Source: Halogeometricum sp. S3BR5-2 (GTDB lineage: Archaea > Halobacteriota > Halobacteria > Halobacteriales > Haloferacaceae). From it: a DNA stretch of 64,000 bases. The DNA lies in assembly GCF_031624635.1 (NCBI RefSeq), contig NZ_JAMQOQ010000005.1:248001-312000 (forward strand), given 5' to 3'. Under the pieces are notes generated by a model. The model was given only the letters and a program-made list of their open reading frames with translations. It had not been told where the DNA came from and ran no database searches. Both the position numbers and the translations under genes were made by a program. Below are positions 816-47,648 of the stretch, in pieces (positions within the stretch are counted from its first letter, which is position 1; each line of letters starts with the position of its first letter).

Positions 816-837
816 ACCCCTCTGTTTCGAGTGGAAA
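816..837 (-). repeat. ORB-like motif
   Basis: Read on the minus strand, this is a TTTC/GAAA half-dyad followed by ACAGAGGGGT. It matches the origin-recognition-box layout seen in the oriC region of this window, with one to two changes in the core. It is isolated here, about 20 kb from the origin. Confidence 0.5.
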
Positions 838-12183: not shown

Positions 12184-12205
12184 TCTCCACCGGAAACGGA
12201 GGGGT
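12184..12205 (+). repeat. ORB-like motif
   Basis: Core GAAACGGAGGGGT preceded by TCTCCACCG, a close relative of the origin-recognition-box sequence at 21.5-21.7 kb. It runs straight into the G-rich tandem repeat. Confidence 0.45.
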
Positions 12206-18728: not shown

Positions 18729-18750
18729 GTTCGACCGGAAACGAAGGGGT
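18729..18750 (+). repeat. ORB-like motif
   Basis: Perfect core GAAACGAAGGGGT (only the 5' GTTCGACCG arm deviates), in the 168-bp gap between the MATE gene start and the end of oapC. It is about 2.6 kb from the nearest origin-proper motif. Confidence 0.55.
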
Positions 18751-18819: not shown

Positions 18820-19962
18820 TCAGCGGTCGTCGTCGCGCGGTCCCCACGTGTCCGGGACTTCGATGACGTAGCGGCCGTCCTCGCGCAGCGAGATAATGTA
18901 CTCGGGGCGGTCGTACAGTTCCATCAGGTTGAGTTCGTACTCGCCGGGTGCGACGATTTTGATGCTCTCGAACTGCTCGTTCAGTTCCTCGCGGAGTTCG
19001 TCGAGGTTCGGCCGGTCGTCGCTCCGCGGTTCGATGACGCGCCCGTTCGCGTCCGTCGGGCGGTCGGCCTCGGAGGCGGCGCGAATCTCGTCGGGCGAGA
19101 CGACGTCGGACCGGGCGCTCGCCTGCGCGTCGTCTTCGCCGTCGTCGTCGGAGGCGGCGCGGCCGGTCGAACGGTCCGCCGTCTCCGTCGGTTCGGACGG
19201 GCTATCGGTCCGGTTCGCGGAGTCGGATGGGGGTTCCGCGGACCGGTCCGCGGGGTCGGACGGACGGTCGGTCTGGTTTGCCGGGCCCGCGGGGTCGGAC
19301 GGGCGCTCCGGGGACGAAGCGCCGCTCTCGTCGGTCCCCGGTCCCGTCTCGGCCTCCGTTTCCGTCTCCGTCGACGACCGGCGTTCCGGGGGGCGGCGCT
19401 GCGCGTCGCCGGTCCGCCGGCGGTTCTCCCGGAGCGTGGTCTCGTCCTTCTCGTCTTGGACTTCGCTGGCGAAGCCGCGGGAGTTCGCCCACTCGCGGAG
19501 GCTCTGCCCGCGGCGGCGGGCGGCGTCGACGTCGTTCGGGGGGTTCGCCCCGGCCTCGGTCTCGCGGTCGGCGTCGGGTCGCTCGCTCTCCGCGTCCGCC
19601 GCCCGGGAGGCGGCGCGTCGCCAGGTGTTCGACCCGGACGTCTCGTCTGCGGGTTCGGCGTCGGTCGCGTTCGCGTCGGCGGTCCGCCCCGACGGCGGTG
19701 TGGAATCCGACGTCGGCGTCGAATCCGGTGACTGCGTCGGGTTCCGTGATTGCGCCGAATCCGACGGTGGCGTCGCGTCGGACGACGCCGTCGACTCCGA
19801 CGGCGACGCCTCTCGCTGGCCGGTCGTCTCGGCGGCGTCGTCGCGTCCGCCCTTCGAGGGGCTGAACTGGAACTTGTTGCCGCCGCAGTTAGGGCATCCC
19901 GACAGCATCTCCTTGGAGCCGTCGGCGAACACCCTCCCGCAGTTCGTACATTGGTGGGGCAT
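18820..19962 (-). CDS. oapC: origin-associated zinc-ribbon protein OapC
   Basis: 380 residues. N-terminal zinc ribbon with four cysteines in CTNCGR (about 5-10) and CPNCGG (about 23-28). A long Ser/Asp/Thr-rich low-complexity linker (about 40-280) includes degenerate SDSTP/QSPDS repeats. A conserved C-terminal domain (about 290-375) contains LNEQFESIKIVAPGEYELNLMELYDRPEYIISL. This layout matches the OapC/ArvC family encoded beside haloarchaeal oriC1. The biochemical role is not established; the ribbon suggests nucleic acid or protein binding. It is the third gene of the leftward oapABC unit, separated from oapB by 79 bp. Confidence 0.85.
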   Translation of the reverse strand: MPHQCTNCGRVFADGSKEMLSGCPNCGGNKFQFSPSKGGRDDAAETTGQREASPSESTASSDATPPSDSAQSRNPTQSPDSTPTSDSTPPSGRTADANATDAEPADETSGSNTWRRAASRAADAESERPDADRETEAGANPPNDVDAARRRGQSLREWANSRGFASEVQDEKDETTLRENRRRTGDAQRRPPERRSSTETETEAETGPGTDESGASSPERPSDPAGPANQTDRPSDPADRSAEPPSDSANRTDSPSEPTETADRSTGRAASDDDGEDDAQASARSDVVSPDEIRAASEADRPTDANGRVIEPRSDDRPNLDELREELNEQFESIKIVAPGEYELNLMELYDRPEYIISLREDGRYVIEVPDTWGPRDDDR

Positions 19963-20041: not shown

Positions 20042-20431
20042 TTACTTCCGGGAGACGAGGGCGCTGATGAGGTTCTCGTCTTTGTGCAGCGTCTGAATCT
20101 GATTCGCCGGGCCGATGACGGTCAGCTTCTTCGTCTCCTCTTTGCCCATCAGTCGGCCGAGGAACCCCTGTCCGCCTTGGGACTGCGGGTAGGTCTCGAT
20201 TTCGATGCCGTTGAACTCGTCGGGGCTGATCTCCGTCATCGTGACTTCGATGAGTTTCGACTCCTCGTCTGGCGAGAGCCCCTCCTCCAGGATGACGATG
20301 TTGCCGTCGCGGACGCCGTCAAGGATGAGACGGATCTTCTCCATGCTCGCGAGCCCTTCCATGCGGGCTCCGCTGATGAGGTCGATCTGCACCCCGTCGT
20401 CGCCGGGTGTGACTTCAGGCATGATACTCAC
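20042..20431 (-). CDS. oapB: origin-associated DUF2073 protein OapB
   Basis: 129 residues from a GTG that overlaps the oapA stop codon by 4 bp (GTGA); the ATG three codons further in (20422) is an alternative. The protein matches archaeal DUF2073: VQIDLISGARMEGLASMEKIRLILDGVRDGNIVILEEGL, then the GFLGRLMGKEETKKLTVIGPANQIQTLHKDENLISALV block. The paired conserved gene order GTPase-DUF2073-zinc ribbon is widespread in euryarchaea. Tight overlap with oapA suggests translational coupling and a shared complex. Function unknown. Confidence 0.88.
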   Translation of the reverse strand: MSIMPEVTPGDDGVQIDLISGARMEGLASMEKIRLILDGVRDGNIVILEEGLSPDEESKLIEVTMTEISPDEFNGIEIETYPQSQGGQGFLGRLMGKEETKKLTVIGPANQIQTLHKDENLISALVSRK

Positions 20432-21069
20432 CCGAAGTACTCCGCTATCTTGTCGTACACTTCGTCCATGTTGTTACCTTCCAGCGCGGAGAGCGGCACC
20501 GTCTCGTGTTGCGGAAACGCGTTCGATATCCGCTGGACGTTCGCGTCCTCCAGGTCGGTCTTGTTCGCGAAGATGAGGACGGGGAGGTCCTGGCTCTCGA
20601 TGATGCCGATGAGCATCGTGTTGACCTGCGTGAACGGGTCCTCGGTGCTGTCGAGCACGTAGATGACGCCGTCGACGTCCTCGCGGAGCCAGTGCATGGC
20701 CTCGGCGACGCCCTCGGTGGCCTCGCGGGACCGCCGGACGGCGTCGTCCTTCTCCATGTCGTGGTCGAGGAACTCCTTGTAGTCGACTTTGGTCGTCACG
20801 CCCGGCGTGTCGACGATGTCGATGGTGACTTTCCTCCCGTTGCGTTCTATCTCCACGTTCTCCTTTCTGCGCGCGCGCCGCGTCTCGTGAGGGACGTGGC
20901 TCTCCGGACCGATGGCGTCACCGGTCCAGTCGCGGGCGATACGGTTTGCGAGAGTCGTCTTCCCGGCGTTCGGCGGTCCGTAGATGCCGATTCGTCTCGG
21001 CTCTGCGTCCGAGAACATCCGGTCGACGACCCGTGAGATGCTGTCTCGTAATCCTGTAAGCAGTCCCAT
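20428..21069 (-). CDS. oapA: origin-associated small GTPase OapA
   Basis: 213 residues from ATG at 21069, which has GGAGG 8-13 bp upstream; a GTG at 21123 would lie upstream of the predicted transcription start. GTPase motifs in order: G1 GPPNAGKT (about 32-39), G3 DTPG (about 86), G4 NKTD (about 169), G5-like SAL (about 190). It belongs to the Era/Obg-type translation-factor GTPase class. It heads the leftward unit oapA-oapB-oapC beside the replication origin. Archaeal homologues are linked by position to oriC1, but a direct role in initiation is not proven. Confidence 0.88.
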   Translation of the reverse strand: MGLLTGLRDSISRVVDRMFSDAEPRRIGIYGPPNAGKTTLANRIARDWTGDAIGPESHVPHETRRARRKENVEIERNGRKVTIDIVDTPGVTTKVDYKEFLDHDMEKDDAVRRSREATEGVAEAMHWLREDVDGVIYVLDSTEDPFTQVNTMLIGIIESQDLPVLIFANKTDLEDANVQRISNAFPQHETVPLSALEGNNMDEVYDKIAEYFG

Positions 21070-21133
21070 CCTGTCCTCCCGCACCTCCCGAATCCGTCGT
21101 GGAGGGGCGTATGCAGGTACCACATTTCTGTGA

Positions 21134-21145
21134 TTACTTAAGTAC
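21134..21145 (-). promoter_or_regulatory. TATA-like palindrome, oap operon promoter
   Basis: TACTTAAGTA, a perfect 10-bp palindrome in AT-rich context, lies at the left edge of the origin. It lies about 65-75 bp before the oapA ATG, leaving a 5' leader of roughly 45 nt that contains a GGAGG ribosome site. Confidence 0.4.
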
Positions 21146-21364
21146 TACGTCAGACACCGGTCAGGTTCACGTCCGCTTTATCCGGCCGAAACCCGATTAA
21201 CGACCGGGTAGACGAGCGGACGAAACCGAGAGATAGAGCGGTGTTTCGGTGTGAAAACATCTTTTTAGATGAAATTTCGTGAGGGGAATAGTATCCCGGA
21301 TCGATAGTATCGACGACTGTGGGTTGTTACCGCGCTTCTCGGGAAAACCCGGGGGTCGCCCCCC

Positions 21365-21386
21365 ACCCCTCTGTTTCAAGTCGAGC
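21365..21386 (-). repeat. ORB element (left, outer)
   Basis: On the minus strand the core reads GAAACAGAGGGGT and continues into GGGGGG. The TTTC arm is degenerate (GCTCGACTT), so this is a weaker site than its neighbours. Confidence 0.65.
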
Positions 21387-21513
21387 GAGCGAGTGGCCCG
21401 GTTCGACGTCCAACAGGGCACAGAGTCACCGCTTTCGCCGCGAGACTCGATGGGAGAACGTCGGTACGTCCTCGGACGACCGTTCGCCGTCCATTCTCTC
21501 GTGTCTTCCGGAC

Positions 21514-21540
21514 CCCCCACCCCTTCGTTTCGAGTGGAAC
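21514..21540 (-). repeat. ORB element (left, inner, perfect core)
   Basis: Minus-strand GTTCCACTC followed by the perfect core GAAACGAAGGGGT and GGGGG. It is identical over 27 bp, except one base, to the inverted copy at 21715-21741. Together they flank the AT-rich unwinding tract. Confidence 0.9.
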
Positions 21541-21543
21541 GCG

Positions 21544-21568
21544 CCGAGAGCCCTCCCCCCGCTCTCGG
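21544..21568. repeat. GC hairpin inside the origin
   Basis: CCGAGAGC and GCTCTCGG form a perfect 8-bp stem with a 9-nt C-rich loop, placed 4 bp from the left inner ORB and directly before the AT-rich tract. Confidence 0.7.
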
Positions 21569-21580
21569 TGACGGCAGCTC

Positions 21581-21670
21581 ATCTAGTTTAATACAGAAAA
21601 GAATATGGCGTAATTATCTCTTTTCTCCCCACTACGGGTTTGGTTGTGAGTACACGGTACTAAAACTACC
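21581..21670. other. AT-rich duplex unwinding element
   Basis: About 90 bp with long A/T runs (TAGTTTAATACAGAAAAG, TAATTATCTCTTTTC, TACTAAAAC) in otherwise GC-rich DNA, centred between the two best ORBs. Assigned as the DNA unwinding element by composition and placement. Confidence 0.75.
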
Positions 21671-21714
21671 GGCTCTAGAAGCCACTCGCGAACCCCCCAC
21701 CCCACCTCTACGCC

Positions 21715-21741
21715 GTTCCACCCGAAACGAAGGGGTGGGGG
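21715..21741 (+). repeat. ORB element (right, inner, perfect core)
   Basis: GTTCCACCC then GAAACGAAGGGGT then GGGGG. This is the inverted partner of 21514-21540, with one mismatch in 27 bp. Confidence 0.9.
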
Positions 21742-21833
21742 AGGGTGGCCCCTCCTCCGCTTCGGGTCCGCGGCTCCTGCGGCGCTCCGAACCTTCCGTT
21801 TACGGCCCGCACAGGCGGGACTGACTGATTCGG

Positions 21834-21966
21834 GTGCATCCGAAACACCTCCGTGTCGTGGGGCCAACCCCTTCGCTTCCGGTCGACCGAGAATTGATAT
21901 CGATACCCTCGACCTATTACAACTAGAACGAGTATAGAGGGCATTCCCGTTCCGTGCATCCGAAAC
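21834..21966. repeat. 13-bp direct repeat pair in origin
   Basis: GTGCATCCGAAAC occurs at 21834-21846 and again at 21954-21966, 120 bp apart, bracketing the ORB at 21867. Its role is unknown; the GAAAC end is reminiscent of an ORB half-site. Confidence 0.6.
21867..21888 (-). repeat. ORB-like element
   Basis: Minus-strand core GAAGCGAAGGGGT (one change) preceded by GGTCGACCG. It is the left boundary of a second AT-rich block that ends at the ORB before orc1. Confidence 0.65.
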
Positions 21967-22082
21967 CGTGCGACTGATAGACAAGTTTTTTGTAGCACCT
22001 CTTCGTCTGGTTCGTCTGCATCATTTGGACGCTCCGTCCTCGGTTCTAAGGTCCGATGCCGCGAATACGACGGCGTCCGGCC

Positions 22083-22090
22083 CGTTATGG
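22083..22090 (+). promoter_or_regulatory. probable TATA box of orc1
   Basis: CGTTATGG is about 50 bp before the orc1 ATG. It predicts a transcription start near 22113, inside the ORB at 22107-22128. Confidence 0.35.
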
Positions 22091-22106
22091 TCCGTTTTCG
22101 GAGCGG

Positions 22107-22128
22107 TTTCCAGTCGAAATGAGGGGGT
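22107..22128 (+). repeat. ORB-like element overlapping the orc1 leader
   Basis: TTTCCAGTC followed by GAAATGAGGGGGT ends 9 bp before the orc1 ATG. Its purine string GAGGGGG is at ribosome-binding-site distance from the start. Binding of Orc1 here would cover the predicted transcription start, giving autoregulation; this is inference. Confidence 0.7.
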
Positions 22129-22137
22129 TACTCACGC

Positions 22138-24006
22138 ATGAACGACGACACACCGGCGCGAGACGGAGACGAGGGGTCGGGTTCGGCCGACCGGTCCGAG
22201 ACGGACACGACGGCCTCGACCGAGGCCGAAACCGAGGATCATCCCTCCGAAGAGGGGTCTGCGGCCGTAGATGCGGACGCGGATACGGATGTAGATTCGG
22301 AGGGCGAGGGCGAGGTCGGAGACGACCCCCGAACCGAGGAAACGTCCCGCGGAACGGACGAAGCGCAAGTCGACGCCGAGAGGGGTACCGACGGGGCTCC
22401 CGACGCCGCCGACGAAGTCACGGCCGAGGACATCGACATCAGCGAGAGCATCGGTCCCGGCGGCCCCGACGGCGTCTCCGGCGCCGGCGAGTCAGGAGTC
22501 GACACCGCGGGGGGTGGAGACGTGAGTCCCGACGGCACCGACGGAACGGGAAGAGCGACGGGCGACGAGGCGGCGACCGACGTGAGCCTCGACGAAGTCG
22601 TCCTCGACGAGGAGGACGGCGACAGTCGCGGCCTGTTCGACGACCTGCTCTCGGGGGAACCCATCTTCGAGAACAAGGAGGTGCTGCGCCCCTCGTACAC
22701 CCCGCACGAACTCCCCCACCGCACCGAGCAGATAAACCAGATGGCGACGATTCTCGTCTCCGCCCTCCGCGGTGAGACGCCGTCGAACATCCTCATCTAC
22801 GGGAAGACGGGGACGGGGAAGACGGCCAGCGCGAAGTTCGTCAGTCAGGAACTCGAATCGACCTCCCAGAAGTACGACGTCCCCTGCGAAGTCGAGTACA
22901 TCAACTGCGAGGTGACGGACACGCAGTACCGCGTCCTCGCGCAGTTGGCGAACAAATTCATCGAGAAGAACTTCTCCGTCATCGAAGACGAACTCGACCG
23001 CCTCGAAGACCTCCGCACACGCGCGGGAGACGCCCCGAACTCCCTCTCCGACACCGAGTTCGACTCGCTCGACGCCGTCGAGGAGCGCATCGACCAACTG
23101 GAGACGGACCGCGAGGAGATGGAGACGGTGCCGATGACCGGGTGGCCGACCGACCGCGTCTACTCGACGTTCTTCGACGCCGTCGACTACAACGAACGCG
23201 TCGTCGTCATCATGCTCGACGAGATAGACAAACTCGTCGAGAAGTCGGGCGACGACACGCTGTACAACCTCTCGCGGATGAACTCCGAGTTGGACAACTC
23301 GCGCATCTCCATCATGGGTATCTCGAACGACCTGAAGTTCACCGACTTCCTCGACCCCCGGGTCAAATCGAGCCTGGGCGAAGAGGAGATCGTGTTCCCG
23401 CCGTACGACGCGAACCAACTGCGCGACATCCTCCAGCACCGCGCCGACGTGGCGTTCAAGGACGGTGCGCTCACGGACGACGTGATCCCGCTCTGTGCGG
23501 CCTTCGCCGCGCAGGAACACGGCGACGCGCGCCGCGCCCTCGACCTGCTCCGGACCGCGGGCGAACTCGCCGAACGCGGACAGGCCGACACCGTCGAGGA
23601 GGCGCACGTCCGGCAGGCGCAGGACAAAATAGAGTTGGACCGAGTGGTCGAGGTCGTCCGTACCCTTCCCACCCAGTCGAAAATCGTCCTCTTCGCCATC
23701 ATCCTCCTGGAGAAGAACGGCGTCCACAACATCAACACGGGCGAGGTGTTCAACATCTACAAGCGCCTCTGCGAGGAGATAGACGCCGACATTCTCACCC
23801 AACGGCGCGTCACCGACCTCATTTCCGAACTCGACATGCTCGGCATCGTCAACGCCGTCGTCGTCTCGAAGGGCCGCTACGGCCGCACTAAGGAGATTTC
23901 GCTGTCGGTTCCCATCGACGAGACGGAGGCGGTCCTCCTCTCGGACTCCCGCCTCGGCGACATCGAGAACGCGCAACCGTTTGTCCAAGCCCGTTTCGAC
24001 AACTGA
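22138..24006 (+). CDS. orc1: replication initiator Orc1/Cdc6
   Basis: 622 residues. A very acidic, Asp/Glu/Thr/Ser-rich disordered extension fills about residues 1-165; it includes two amphipathic stretches (TAEDIDISESIG, DVSLDEVVLDEEDG). The AAA+ core follows: Walker A GKTGTGKT (222-229), Walker B LDEID (360-364), sensor 1 GISND (394-398) and sensor 2 GDARRALD (462-469). The C-terminal winged helix (about 490-610, TQSKIVLFAIILLEKNG...ISLSVPIDE) binds ORB DNA. It initiates replication at the adjacent origin. ORB sites lie before and just after the gene. The long acidic head is characteristic of origin-linked haloarchaeal Orc1, although archaeal Orc1 proteins usually have about 400 residues. 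Confidence 0.96.
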   Translation: MNDDTPARDGDEGSGSADRSETDTTASTEAETEDHPSEEGSAAVDADADTDVDSEGEGEVGDDPRTEETSRGTDEAQVDAERGTDGAPDAADEVTAEDIDISESIGPGGPDGVSGAGESGVDTAGGGDVSPDGTDGTGRATGDEAATDVSLDEVVLDEEDGDSRGLFDDLLSGEPIFENKEVLRPSYTPHELPHRTEQINQMATILVSALRGETPSNILIYGKTGTGKTASAKFVSQELESTSQKYDVPCEVEYINCEVTDTQYRVLAQLANKFIEKNFSVIEDELDRLEDLRTRAGDAPNSLSDTEFDSLDAVEERIDQLETDREEMETVPMTGWPTDRVYSTFFDAVDYNERVVVIMLDEIDKLVEKSGDDTLYNLSRMNSELDNSRISIMGISNDLKFTDFLDPRVKSSLGEEEIVFPPYDANQLRDILQHRADVAFKDGALTDDVIPLCAAFAAQEHGDARRALDLLRTAGELAERGQADTVEEAHVRQAQDKIELDRVVEVVRTLPTQSKIVLFAIILLEKNGVHNINTGEVFNIYKRLCEEIDADILTQRRVTDLISELDMLGIVNAVVVSKGRYGRTKEISLSVPIDETEAVLLSDSRLGDIENAQPFVQARFDN

Positions 24007-24051: not shown

Positions 24052-24073
24052 ACCCCTTCGGTTCGAGTCGAAA
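24052..24073 (-). repeat. ORB-like motif downstream of orc1
   Basis: ACCCCTTCGG then TTCGAGTCGAAA, 46 bp after the orc1 stop and in the same orientation as the left-hand origin motifs. The dyad TTCGA-GTCGAA is intact; one base in the core differs. Confidence 0.5.
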
Positions 24074-25078: not shown

Positions 25079-26752
25079 GTGCCTCTGGAGACGCCGGCCC
25101 GCATCGTCCGCGAACTCGCGCGCCACGGCTACAACGCCGAACGGGAGGCCGTGACGCTCATCGCGGGCGCCGCAGACCCCGGGACGACGCTCGCGCGCGC
25201 CGTCGAGCATGCCGGCCCCGACTCCTTCCGCGTCACCGCCGAGGACGTCCGCGCGGTGCTCGACGCCGGCCCGAACGCGACTGACGCGCCCGTCTCCGAC
25301 CCCGCCTCGCCCGCCGAAACCCCGCCTACCGACCCCGGAACGACCGACCCGACGACGGACGGCGGGGCGGCGGCCGGAAGACCCGCGGATAACGACGCCC
25401 ACGAATCCGCCTCTACCCCCGCTTCCACCCCCTCGACAGACCCCTCTACTTCGAGTGGAGAAACGAACGACGAAGACTCGATAGGACCGAAATCGGCTGC
25501 ACCCGAAACAGAGGGGAACCGGTCCGGACGCAGTTTGGACACGTCGCTCCGGTCGCTCGACGTCGCCAACGACATGACCGGACAGAGCACCGGAACGGGC
25601 GAGTACGGCGACTTCGTGAAGGTGTTCAAGGACCGTTACGAGAAGCTCTCCCGACAGCTTCGCGGCCGGGTGAACCACCGGCCCGCCGAGGCCATCCAGT
25701 CGATGTCCGGCGGCAGCGACGCGGCGATGGTCGGCCTCGTCAACGACATCCGGTCGACGGCCAGCGGTCACTGGCTGGTCGAACTGGAGGACACGACGGG
25801 GACGTTCCCCTGTCTCGTGATGAAGGACCGCGAGTTCGCCTCGGCGGTGGAGGAACTCCTCTTAGACGAGTGCATCGCCGTCGAGGGCACTCTGGCCGAC
25901 GACGCGGGCATCATGTTCGTCGACTCGATGTACTCCCCGGACGTGCCGCGGACGTACAGGCCGAACACCGCGGACAGACACGTGCAGGCGGCGCTCATCT
26001 CCGACGTGCACGTCGGGAGTCAGGAGTTCATGACCGACGCGTGGCAGCGATTCACCTCGTGGCTTCACACCGAGGAGGCCGAACACGTGGAGTACCTCCT
26101 CATCGCGGGCGACATGGTGGAAGGCGTCGGCGTCTACCCGAACCAGGACGAGGAGTTGGACATCGTCGACATCTACGACCAGTACGAGCAGTTCTCCGAG
26201 CACCTCAAAGAGGTGCCGGGCGACATGGAGATAGTGATGATACCGGGCAACCACGACGCCGTCCGCCTCGCCGAACCCCAACCCGGGTTCGACGAGCACC
26301 TCCGCGACATCATGTCCGTCCACGACGCACACATCACGAGCAACCCCTCGACGGTGACCCTGGAGGGTGTGAAGGTGCTGATGTACCACGGCGTCTCGCT
26401 GGACGAGGTTATCGCCGAACTCCCCGCGGAGTCGGCCAGTTACGACGAACCGCACAAGGCGATGTACCAGTTGTTGAAGAAGCGCCACGTCGCCCCGCAG
26501 TACGGCGGGCACACCCGCCTCGCGCCCGAGGAGAAGGACTACCTCGTGATGGAGGAGGTGCCCGACGTGTTCCACACGGGCCACGTCCACAAACTCGGCT
26601 GGGGGAAGTACCACAACGTCCTCGCGGTCAACTCCGGGTGCTGGCAGGCCCAGACCGACTTCCAGAAGTCGGTCAACATCGACCCCGACGCGGGCTACGC
26701 GCCCATCCTCGATTTGGACACGCTGGAGATGACCGTTCGAAAGTTCTCCTGA
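25079..26752 (+). CDS. polD1: DNA polymerase D (family D) small subunit DP1
   Basis: 557 residues from GTG at 25079; no closer upstream in-frame start is credible. The N-terminal helical domain (about 1-60) is followed by a long Thr/Ser/Pro/Ala linker (about 65-165), an OB-fold region (about 190-295) and a metallophosphoesterase domain. Phosphoesterase motifs are ISDVHVGS (about 305), AGDMVEG (about 342), PGNHD (about 389) and GHVHKLG (about 501), consistent with active 3'-5' exonuclease. DP1 pairs with the large subunit DP2, not in this window, to form the archaeal replicative polymerase. Two ORB-like motifs lie within the linker-encoding DNA (25440-25517). Confidence 0.94.
   Translation: MPLETPARIVRELARHGYNAEREAVTLIAGAADPGTTLARAVEHAGPDSFRVTAEDVRAVLDAGPNATDAPVSDPASPAETPPTDPGTTDPTTDGGAAAGRPADNDAHESASTPASTPSTDPSTSSGETNDEDSIGPKSAAPETEGNRSGRSLDTSLRSLDVANDMTGQSTGTGEYGDFVKVFKDRYEKLSRQLRGRVNHRPAEAIQSMSGGSDAAMVGLVNDIRSTASGHWLVELEDTTGTFPCLVMKDREFASAVEELLLDECIAVEGTLADDAGIMFVDSMYSPDVPRTYRPNTADRHVQAALISDVHVGSQEFMTDAWQRFTSWLHTEEAEHVEYLLIAGDMVEGVGVYPNQDEELDIVDIYDQYEQFSEHLKEVPGDMEIVMIPGNHDAVRLAEPQPGFDEHLRDIMSVHDAHITSNPSTVTLEGVKVLMYHGVSLDEVIAELPAESASYDEPHKAMYQLLKKRHVAPQYGGHTRLAPEEKDYLVMEEVPDVFHTGHVHKLGWGKYHNVLAVNSGCWQAQTDFQKSVNIDPDAGYAPILDLDTLEMTVRKFS
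25440..25461 (-). repeat. ORB-like motif inside polD1
   Basis: ACCCCTCTACTTCGAGTGGA in the sequence encoding the Ser/Thr-rich linker. The dyad arm is intact but the core is changed (GAAGTAGAGGGGT on the minus strand). Confidence 0.4.
25496..25517 (+). repeat. ORB-like motif inside polD1
   Basis: ACCCGAAACAGAGGGGA, partner of the motif 35 bp upstream and in opposite orientation. The G-string lacks the final T. Both fall in low-complexity coding DNA. Confidence 0.4.
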
Positions 26753-47579: not shown

Positions 47580-47601
47580 TCTCCAGTTGAAACGAAGGGG
47601 T
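47580..47601 (+). repeat. ORB-like motif (cluster, 2 of 3)
   Basis: TCTCCAGTT then the perfect core GAAACGAAGGGGT, directly followed by CCCCCC. Confidence 0.7.
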
Positions 47602-47626: not shown

Positions 47627-47648
47627 TTTCCACACGAAACGAAGGGGT
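47627..47648 (+). repeat. ORB-like motif (cluster, 3 of 3)
   Basis: TTTCCACAC then the perfect core GAAACGAAGGGGT. It is a full consensus match and ends 9 bp before the cgi121 stop region. Confidence 0.75.

Follow-up and report, generated by a model that had tools for sequence, protein, structure and literature searches.

The window, by which we mean the whole stretch of 64,000 nucleotides analysed here, covers positions 248001-312000 of contig C5 in the 4.66 Mb genome (G000) of a Halogeometricum-group haloarchaeon. It contains an initiator gene, three oap genes and, in the spacer between them, a set of ORB elements around an AT-rich sequence. The features at the centre of the locus are as follows.

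18823-19962, minus strand: OapC gene, oriC1 gene context
20045-20431, minus strand: OapB gene, oriC1 gene context
20431-21123, minus strand: OapA-like GTPase gene, oriC1 gene context
21360-21387, minus strand: outer ORB with a weak core (25.0 bits) and a full extended G-string, TGGGGG
21514-21541, minus strand: left DUE-flanking ORB, extended G-string present, 38.7 bits, equivalent in 78 loci
21584-21640, no strand: AT-rich duplex unwinding element (DUE) between the conserved ORBs, with the least stable 40-bp stretch of the 64 kb
21714-21741, plus strand: right DUE-flanking ORB, extended G-string present, 38.7 bits, equivalent in 78 loci
22138-24006, plus strand: orc1/cdc6 initiator gene (Pfam Cdc6_C and Cdc6_lid; NCBIfam ORC1-type DNA replication protein)

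The first-pass annotation had placed an oriC1-type origin here, between the oap operon and orc1, and this gene order was confirmed by the identification of OapB, OapC, an OapA-like GTPase and Orc1/Cdc6. The inner inverted ORB pair that it described was also borne out, with arms of 28 nt (21514-21541 and 21714-21741) that are 96% complementary, differ by one mismatch and have 172 nt between them. By nearest-neighbour energy, the minimum of 40-bp duplex stability in the whole 64 kb falls at 21584, inside the AT block of this pair. For comparison, 80 haloarchaeal loci were fetched with Orc1, and four genomes (G001-G004) served as congeners. Inverted ORBs had been expected to be conserved in relatives, and for the inner pair they are: a minus/plus pair with a spacing of 178-299 bp lies upstream of orc1 in 78 of the 80 loci, the two loci without it (L071 and L072) being records that start inside the origin. 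The outer, weaker ORB proposed earlier is likewise present, as an element at 21359-21390 that is 81% identical, in direct orientation, to the left DUE ORB; among the congeners it was found in G001 and G004, was weak in G002 and absent from G003.

The locus thus has an Orc1-type initiator adjoined by oap genes, and one AT-rich element between inverted ORBs that carry the extended halophile G-string. Its sequence strongly supports the region as a genuine, canonical haloarchaeal oriC1 with an inner ORB-DUE-ORB unit. The oriC1 itself is an already known kind of origin, since the oap-orc1 setting and a single AT-rich element flanked by inverted ORBs that bear extended G-strings are the published oriC1 layout (PMC3936714, PMC3528665). 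The same setting, G-string ORBs and single AT-rich element are seen in Haloarcula hispanica oriC1-cdc6A and in Haloferax oriC1. Judged by eye, the inner G-rich inverted repeat appears to be only half of that of H. hispanica, and a half-length G-rich inverted repeat has been reported for Halogeometricum borinquense (PMC3936714).

Several other observations were made around the origin. The cumulative GC skew, gene-strand effects included, peaks at about 21 kb (20500-21500) and then falls, so that its turning point is at the origin. Right of the right DUE ORB, at 21749-21771, there is a half-ORB-like element, GTTTCGNGTC, which is conserved in most of the five Halogeometricum-group genomes and is possibly a mini-ORB. 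The N-terminus of Orc1 (22138-22700) is a long acidic low-complexity extension of about 180 residues ahead of the AAA+ domain. Genome G000 gave 15 Cdc6-lid matches, 14 of them above the family cut-off, which suggests many other Orc paralogues and possibly other origins.

The first-pass annotation had further read the spacer as holding a second AT block bracketed by a second inverted ORB pair. The features of this part are the following.

21864-21889, minus strand: degenerate ORB, left arm of the proposed second pair, without extended G-string, 19.5 bits
21976-22031, plus strand: orc1 promoter-like/leader element, a T-rich TATA-like box and TTCRTCTGGTTCGNCTGCATCAWCTGGACG, conserved across 77 loci
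22107-22129, plus strand: orc1-upstream ORB, without extended G-string, 27.7 bits, with the core beginning some 30 bp ahead of the start codon

It is true that two AT blocks flanked by ORB-like elements exist, and that the ORBs at 21868 and 22108 are inverted. However, they are weak as compared to the inner ORBs (19.5 and 27.7 bits against 38.7), having five and three mismatches to the ORB core respectively, and were not recovered as mutual inverted repeats in the repeat search. A comparable minus-strand ORB in the interval from the DUE to the orc1-upstream ORB was found in only 4 of 78 loci, so the second pair is not conserved; among the congeners the 21868 ORB scored above 14 bits in two of four (G001 and G004), the aligned sequences scoring 1.9 bits in G002 and 2.7 bits in G003. 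In the duplex-stability scan, the second AT block was not set apart from other intergenic spacers by a lower stability, and the sequence at 21254 was less stable. When the AT blocks were compared across relatives, the unit of the inner pair was conserved, but the second block was found to hold a conserved promoter-like element instead. In 74 of 77 loci, a distance of 131±2 bp separates the start of this element from the orc1-upstream ORB; a plus-strand ORB lies just before orc1 in 77 of 78 loci, and the start codon follows it closely.

It had been suggested that these two AT blocks are two functional unwinding elements, each with its own inverted ORB pair. A published parallel can be cited in favour of this, as Halorubrum lacusprofundi (Hla_3512) and Haloquadratum (Hwa_HQ2959A) have two candidate origins beside one orc gene (PMC3528665). 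The likeness lies in two AT-rich blocks with ORB-like elements by one orc/cdc6 gene; the origins there differ from each other in ORB sequence, whereas in this locus the second block is probably that of the orc1 promoter and its ORBs are core-only. The case for a second DUE was weighed on the strength of the ORBs, their G-strings, their conservation, the stability of the duplex and the overlap with the promoter, and it was not supported. With second-pair ORBs that lack the extended G-string, a pair present in 4 of 78 loci and an AT block that overlaps the conserved orc1 promoter element, two unwinding elements are very unlikely. The second AT block is probably the promoter and leader of orc1, with the transcription start placed there from sequence features, and the ORB ahead of the start codon would be an Orc1 site that probably serves autoregulation. 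Within the 56-bp element (21976-22031) there are three near-repeats of 9 nt with a likeness to ORB half-sites. A hairpin between the orc1 leader and the ORB, judged by eye, was set aside because the complementarity is that of ORB half-sites in opposite orientation. In a search of the orc1 leader and the polD1 region, no structured-RNA family of Rfam was matched.

The inventory of ORBs in the window is larger than was first described. An ORB profile of 22 positions, trained on the DUE ORBs, gave 505 matches at >=16 bits when run on the 1.64 Mb of oriC1 loci, as against no match in the reversed control. In the window it detected 13 ORBs at >=19 bits, while the control had none above 7 bits; the five ORBs named in the first-pass annotation are among them and the other eight are additional. 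The ORB core with up to three mismatches occurs eight times in the window against 0.00 expected in shuffles. An exhaustive pattern search of G000 at the same stringency returned nine matches, all on the oriC1 contig and eight within the window, and none for the reversed pattern; near-consensus ORBs are clustered at oriC1 in relatives as well. ORBs away from the minimal origin are referred to as satellites, and those outside polD1 are given below.

817-836, minus strand: intergenic satellite ORB, 32.1 bits, syntenic ORBs in 4/4 congeners
12185-12204, plus strand: intergenic satellite ORB, 28.1 bits, syntenic ORBs in 4/4 congeners
18730-18749, plus strand: satellite ORB between oapC and the next same-strand gene, 30.8 bits, syntenic in 4/4 congeners
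24053-24072, minus strand: satellite ORB just downstream of orc1, 27.3 bits, equivalents in G001 and G004
47581-47600, plus strand: first satellite ORB of a tandem pair downstream of the Cgi121 gene, 33.6 bits, syntenic pair in 4/4 congeners
47628-47647, plus strand: second satellite ORB of the same tandem pair, 36.1 bits, syntenic pair in 4/4 congeners

The satellites in the window lie mostly in spacers after stop codons and not at obvious promoters. In congener alignments at 817, 12185, 18730 and 47581/47628, the ORB is the main conserved block amid diverged spacers. As at 24053, an ORB lies within 300 bp of the orc1 stop codon in 21 of 78 loci. Core-only ORBs occupy spacers to about ±26 kb of the origin and become sparser to about ±165 kb; for the far satellites at 104684, 148208/148254 and 357814/357955 of contig C5 (about -165, -121 and +88 kb), ORBs are found at the syntenic place in G002 and/or G004.

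What is said here about whole genomes comes from pattern searches and from a profile search that scored the best 150 candidates per genome. In these searches, of the kind proposed earlier, near-consensus ORBs were confined to the oriC1 contig, most of them no more than 30 kb from the origin. With a satellite-inclusive profile, 15 of 15 matches in the own genome with E<0.1 fell on the oriC1 contig, which makes up 8.9% of the genome (best 150 candidates). Across nine genomes (best 150 candidates each), 33 of 49 satellites were within 30 kb of oriC1 as compared to 0.8 expected, and 46 of 49 were within 250 kb as compared to 6.6 expected; this count includes congeners that are not independent, which makes the binomial values look more significant than they are, and the pattern recurs in separate genera.

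The satellites separate from the firing ORBs in one feature. The extended halophile G-string, taken as at least four of five G at +21 to +25, was present in 156 of 156 DUE-flanking ORBs as compared to six of the other ORBs (at most 341 scorable). It was found in none of the 94 members of the orc1-upstream class, and the satellites lack it; the outer ORB at 21366 has one. The ORB sequences fall cleanly into two classes by the G-string, and this split is not built in, because the DUE pair was picked by core, orientation and spacing. In H. hispanica oriC1, mutating either G-string abolished autonomous replication (PMC3936714).

One pair of satellites lies inside the coding sequence of a replication gene.

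25079-26752, plus strand: polD1, the DNA polymerase D (II) small subunit gene (NCBIfam equivalog, 976 bits), start codon inferred from sequence
25440-25517: inverted ORB pair in the polD1 coding sequence, arms 25441-25460 (minus) and 25497-25516 (plus), 56-bp spacing

The pair sits in the linker-coding part of the gene, and the same pair, with the same spacing and codon phase, recurs in many loci. Both arms score >=10 bits in 31 of 75 loci and the right arm >=16 bits in 47 of 75; in Halorubrum it is mostly the right arm alone that is kept. A profile of the whole 78 bp was matched in 109 of the order's 117 genomes, a figure to be taken as a maximum since other ORBs may also match it. Many haloarchaeal families nevertheless have strong matches over its full length, and the four that were sampled all lie inside polD1 by orc1. 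Synonymous recoding with the codon usage of each gene gave p<0.01 for 30 of 30 left arms and 47 of 47 right arms; this simulation is conditioned on the site with the best score in each gene, but codon phase and the 56-bp spacing recur across genera. Conservation of the protein as the cause of the polD1 ORBs was ruled out by the simulation, and the pair is conserved beyond what synonymous recoding would leave.

Because some of the satellites are weak (20-25 bits), it could be argued that they derive from the origin as copies in decay, or that GC-rich sequence has matched the motif by chance. This is exceedingly unlikely in view of the absence of control matches, the syntenic conservation and the synonymous constraint on the polD1 ORBs; chance origin in particular is contradicted by the shuffle, reversed-pattern and profile controls together with the conservation tests.

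At the level of the motif, multiple initiator-binding sites exist beyond the minimal origin. Our overall reading is a canonical oriC1 with a single DUE, an orc1 promoter with a candidate Orc1 site and core-only satellites that bind Orc1 without firing, and we consider it to have about an even chance of being correct. In the firing unit, binding of Orc1 to the two inverted G-string ORBs would open the single AT-rich element that they enclose. The core-only satellites keep the recognition core without the extension needed for firing; they cluster around the origin and are under selection. They may thus bind Orc1 without firing, and their simplest role would be to keep Orc1 off the origin once they have been duplicated. 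As the satellites would be replicated straight after initiation, the number of competing sites would be doubled fast and re-initiation would be damped. The architecture, the G-string dichotomy, the clustering, the synteny and the synonymous-site constraint can be read directly from the sequences, and from these we infer Orc1 binding at the satellites, titration and autoregulation. That the satellites would be bound by Orc1 and not by a paralogue is suggested by the identity of the motif.

In Bacillus subtilis, oriC-proximal DnaA-box clusters are initiator-binding sites beyond the origin that restrain initiation. In E. coli, initiator-binding sites outside the origin at datA restrain initiation (PMC4585315, PMC3936714). 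The likeness to both is in having initiator-binding sites outside the origin, seen here at the motif level, while the initiator and the motif differ. A closer case is oriC2D of H. hispanica, an ORB-rich region downstream of cdc6E that has no origin activity and was proposed to limit initiation by initiator titration; it is a single 722-bp cluster of 11 ORBs for Cdc6E that adjoins its gene (PMC3936714). There the ORBs are without origin activity and here they are putatively non-firing, as known from the motif alone. In contrast to that compact Cdc6E cluster, the ORBs described here are of the oriC1 type and are spread over tens to hundreds of kb, with one pair in polD1. Single satellites over at least 100 kb are less like compact datA or oriC2D, and they could be bound by another Orc paralogue or a different factor. 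Neither a fixed 56-bp spacing nor a site in polD1 is obviously needed for titration, and a function more specific than this is hinted at.

Two alternatives to titration deserve serious consideration, namely chromosome organisation and transcriptional coupling. Orc1 or a partner at the satellites could act as a system that, in the manner of parS or by bridging, folds or partitions origins that have just been replicated. In several genomes (best 150 candidates each) the satellites are dense near the origin and thin out to about ±230 kb, which would fit such a system; their positions are conserved, and some form pairs of fixed spacing, 56 bp in polD1 and 46-47 bp in the tandem pair. Yet no orientation bias is apparent among the satellites of the window and, to our knowledge, no partition function of Orc1 has been described in haloarchaea, so that we regard this as somewhat unlikely. 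Alternatively, the satellites could be transcriptional sites by which Orc1 couples replication to nearby expression, notably of orc1 and polD1. The ORB immediately ahead of orc1, whose spacing from the promoter-like element is fixed, and the ORB pair inside polD1 would fit this, but the polD1 pair is in the middle of the gene and the position of most satellites, after stop codons or in spacers, is not that of obvious promoters; we hold it to be unlikely. The most likely role of the satellites is binding or titrating Orc1 near the origin. In its broader form, that non-firing Orc1 sites form a conserved array centred on the origin, to which the spacing-constrained polD1 pair belongs, and that this array controls re-initiation or organises the origin domain, the proposal is tentative, falling a little short of an even chance.

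Published surveys of haloarchaeal origins examined only the intergenic regions adjoining orc/cdc6 genes, so that distal and intragenic ORBs fall outside them, and in the papers accessible to us neither distal ORBs nor ORBs within polD1 were found to be described. This is a caution for origin surveys restricted to such spacers. Since the core-only ORBs can be separated by sequence from the two firing ORBs, there are specific bases to mutate in tractable haloarchaea, and the polD1 pair could be removed by synonymous changes alone. Control of re-initiation and coordination of origins in archaea are poorly understood. If the proposed role is true, the satellites would be a dispersed archaeal counterpart of the bacterial initiator-titration or ori-domain systems.
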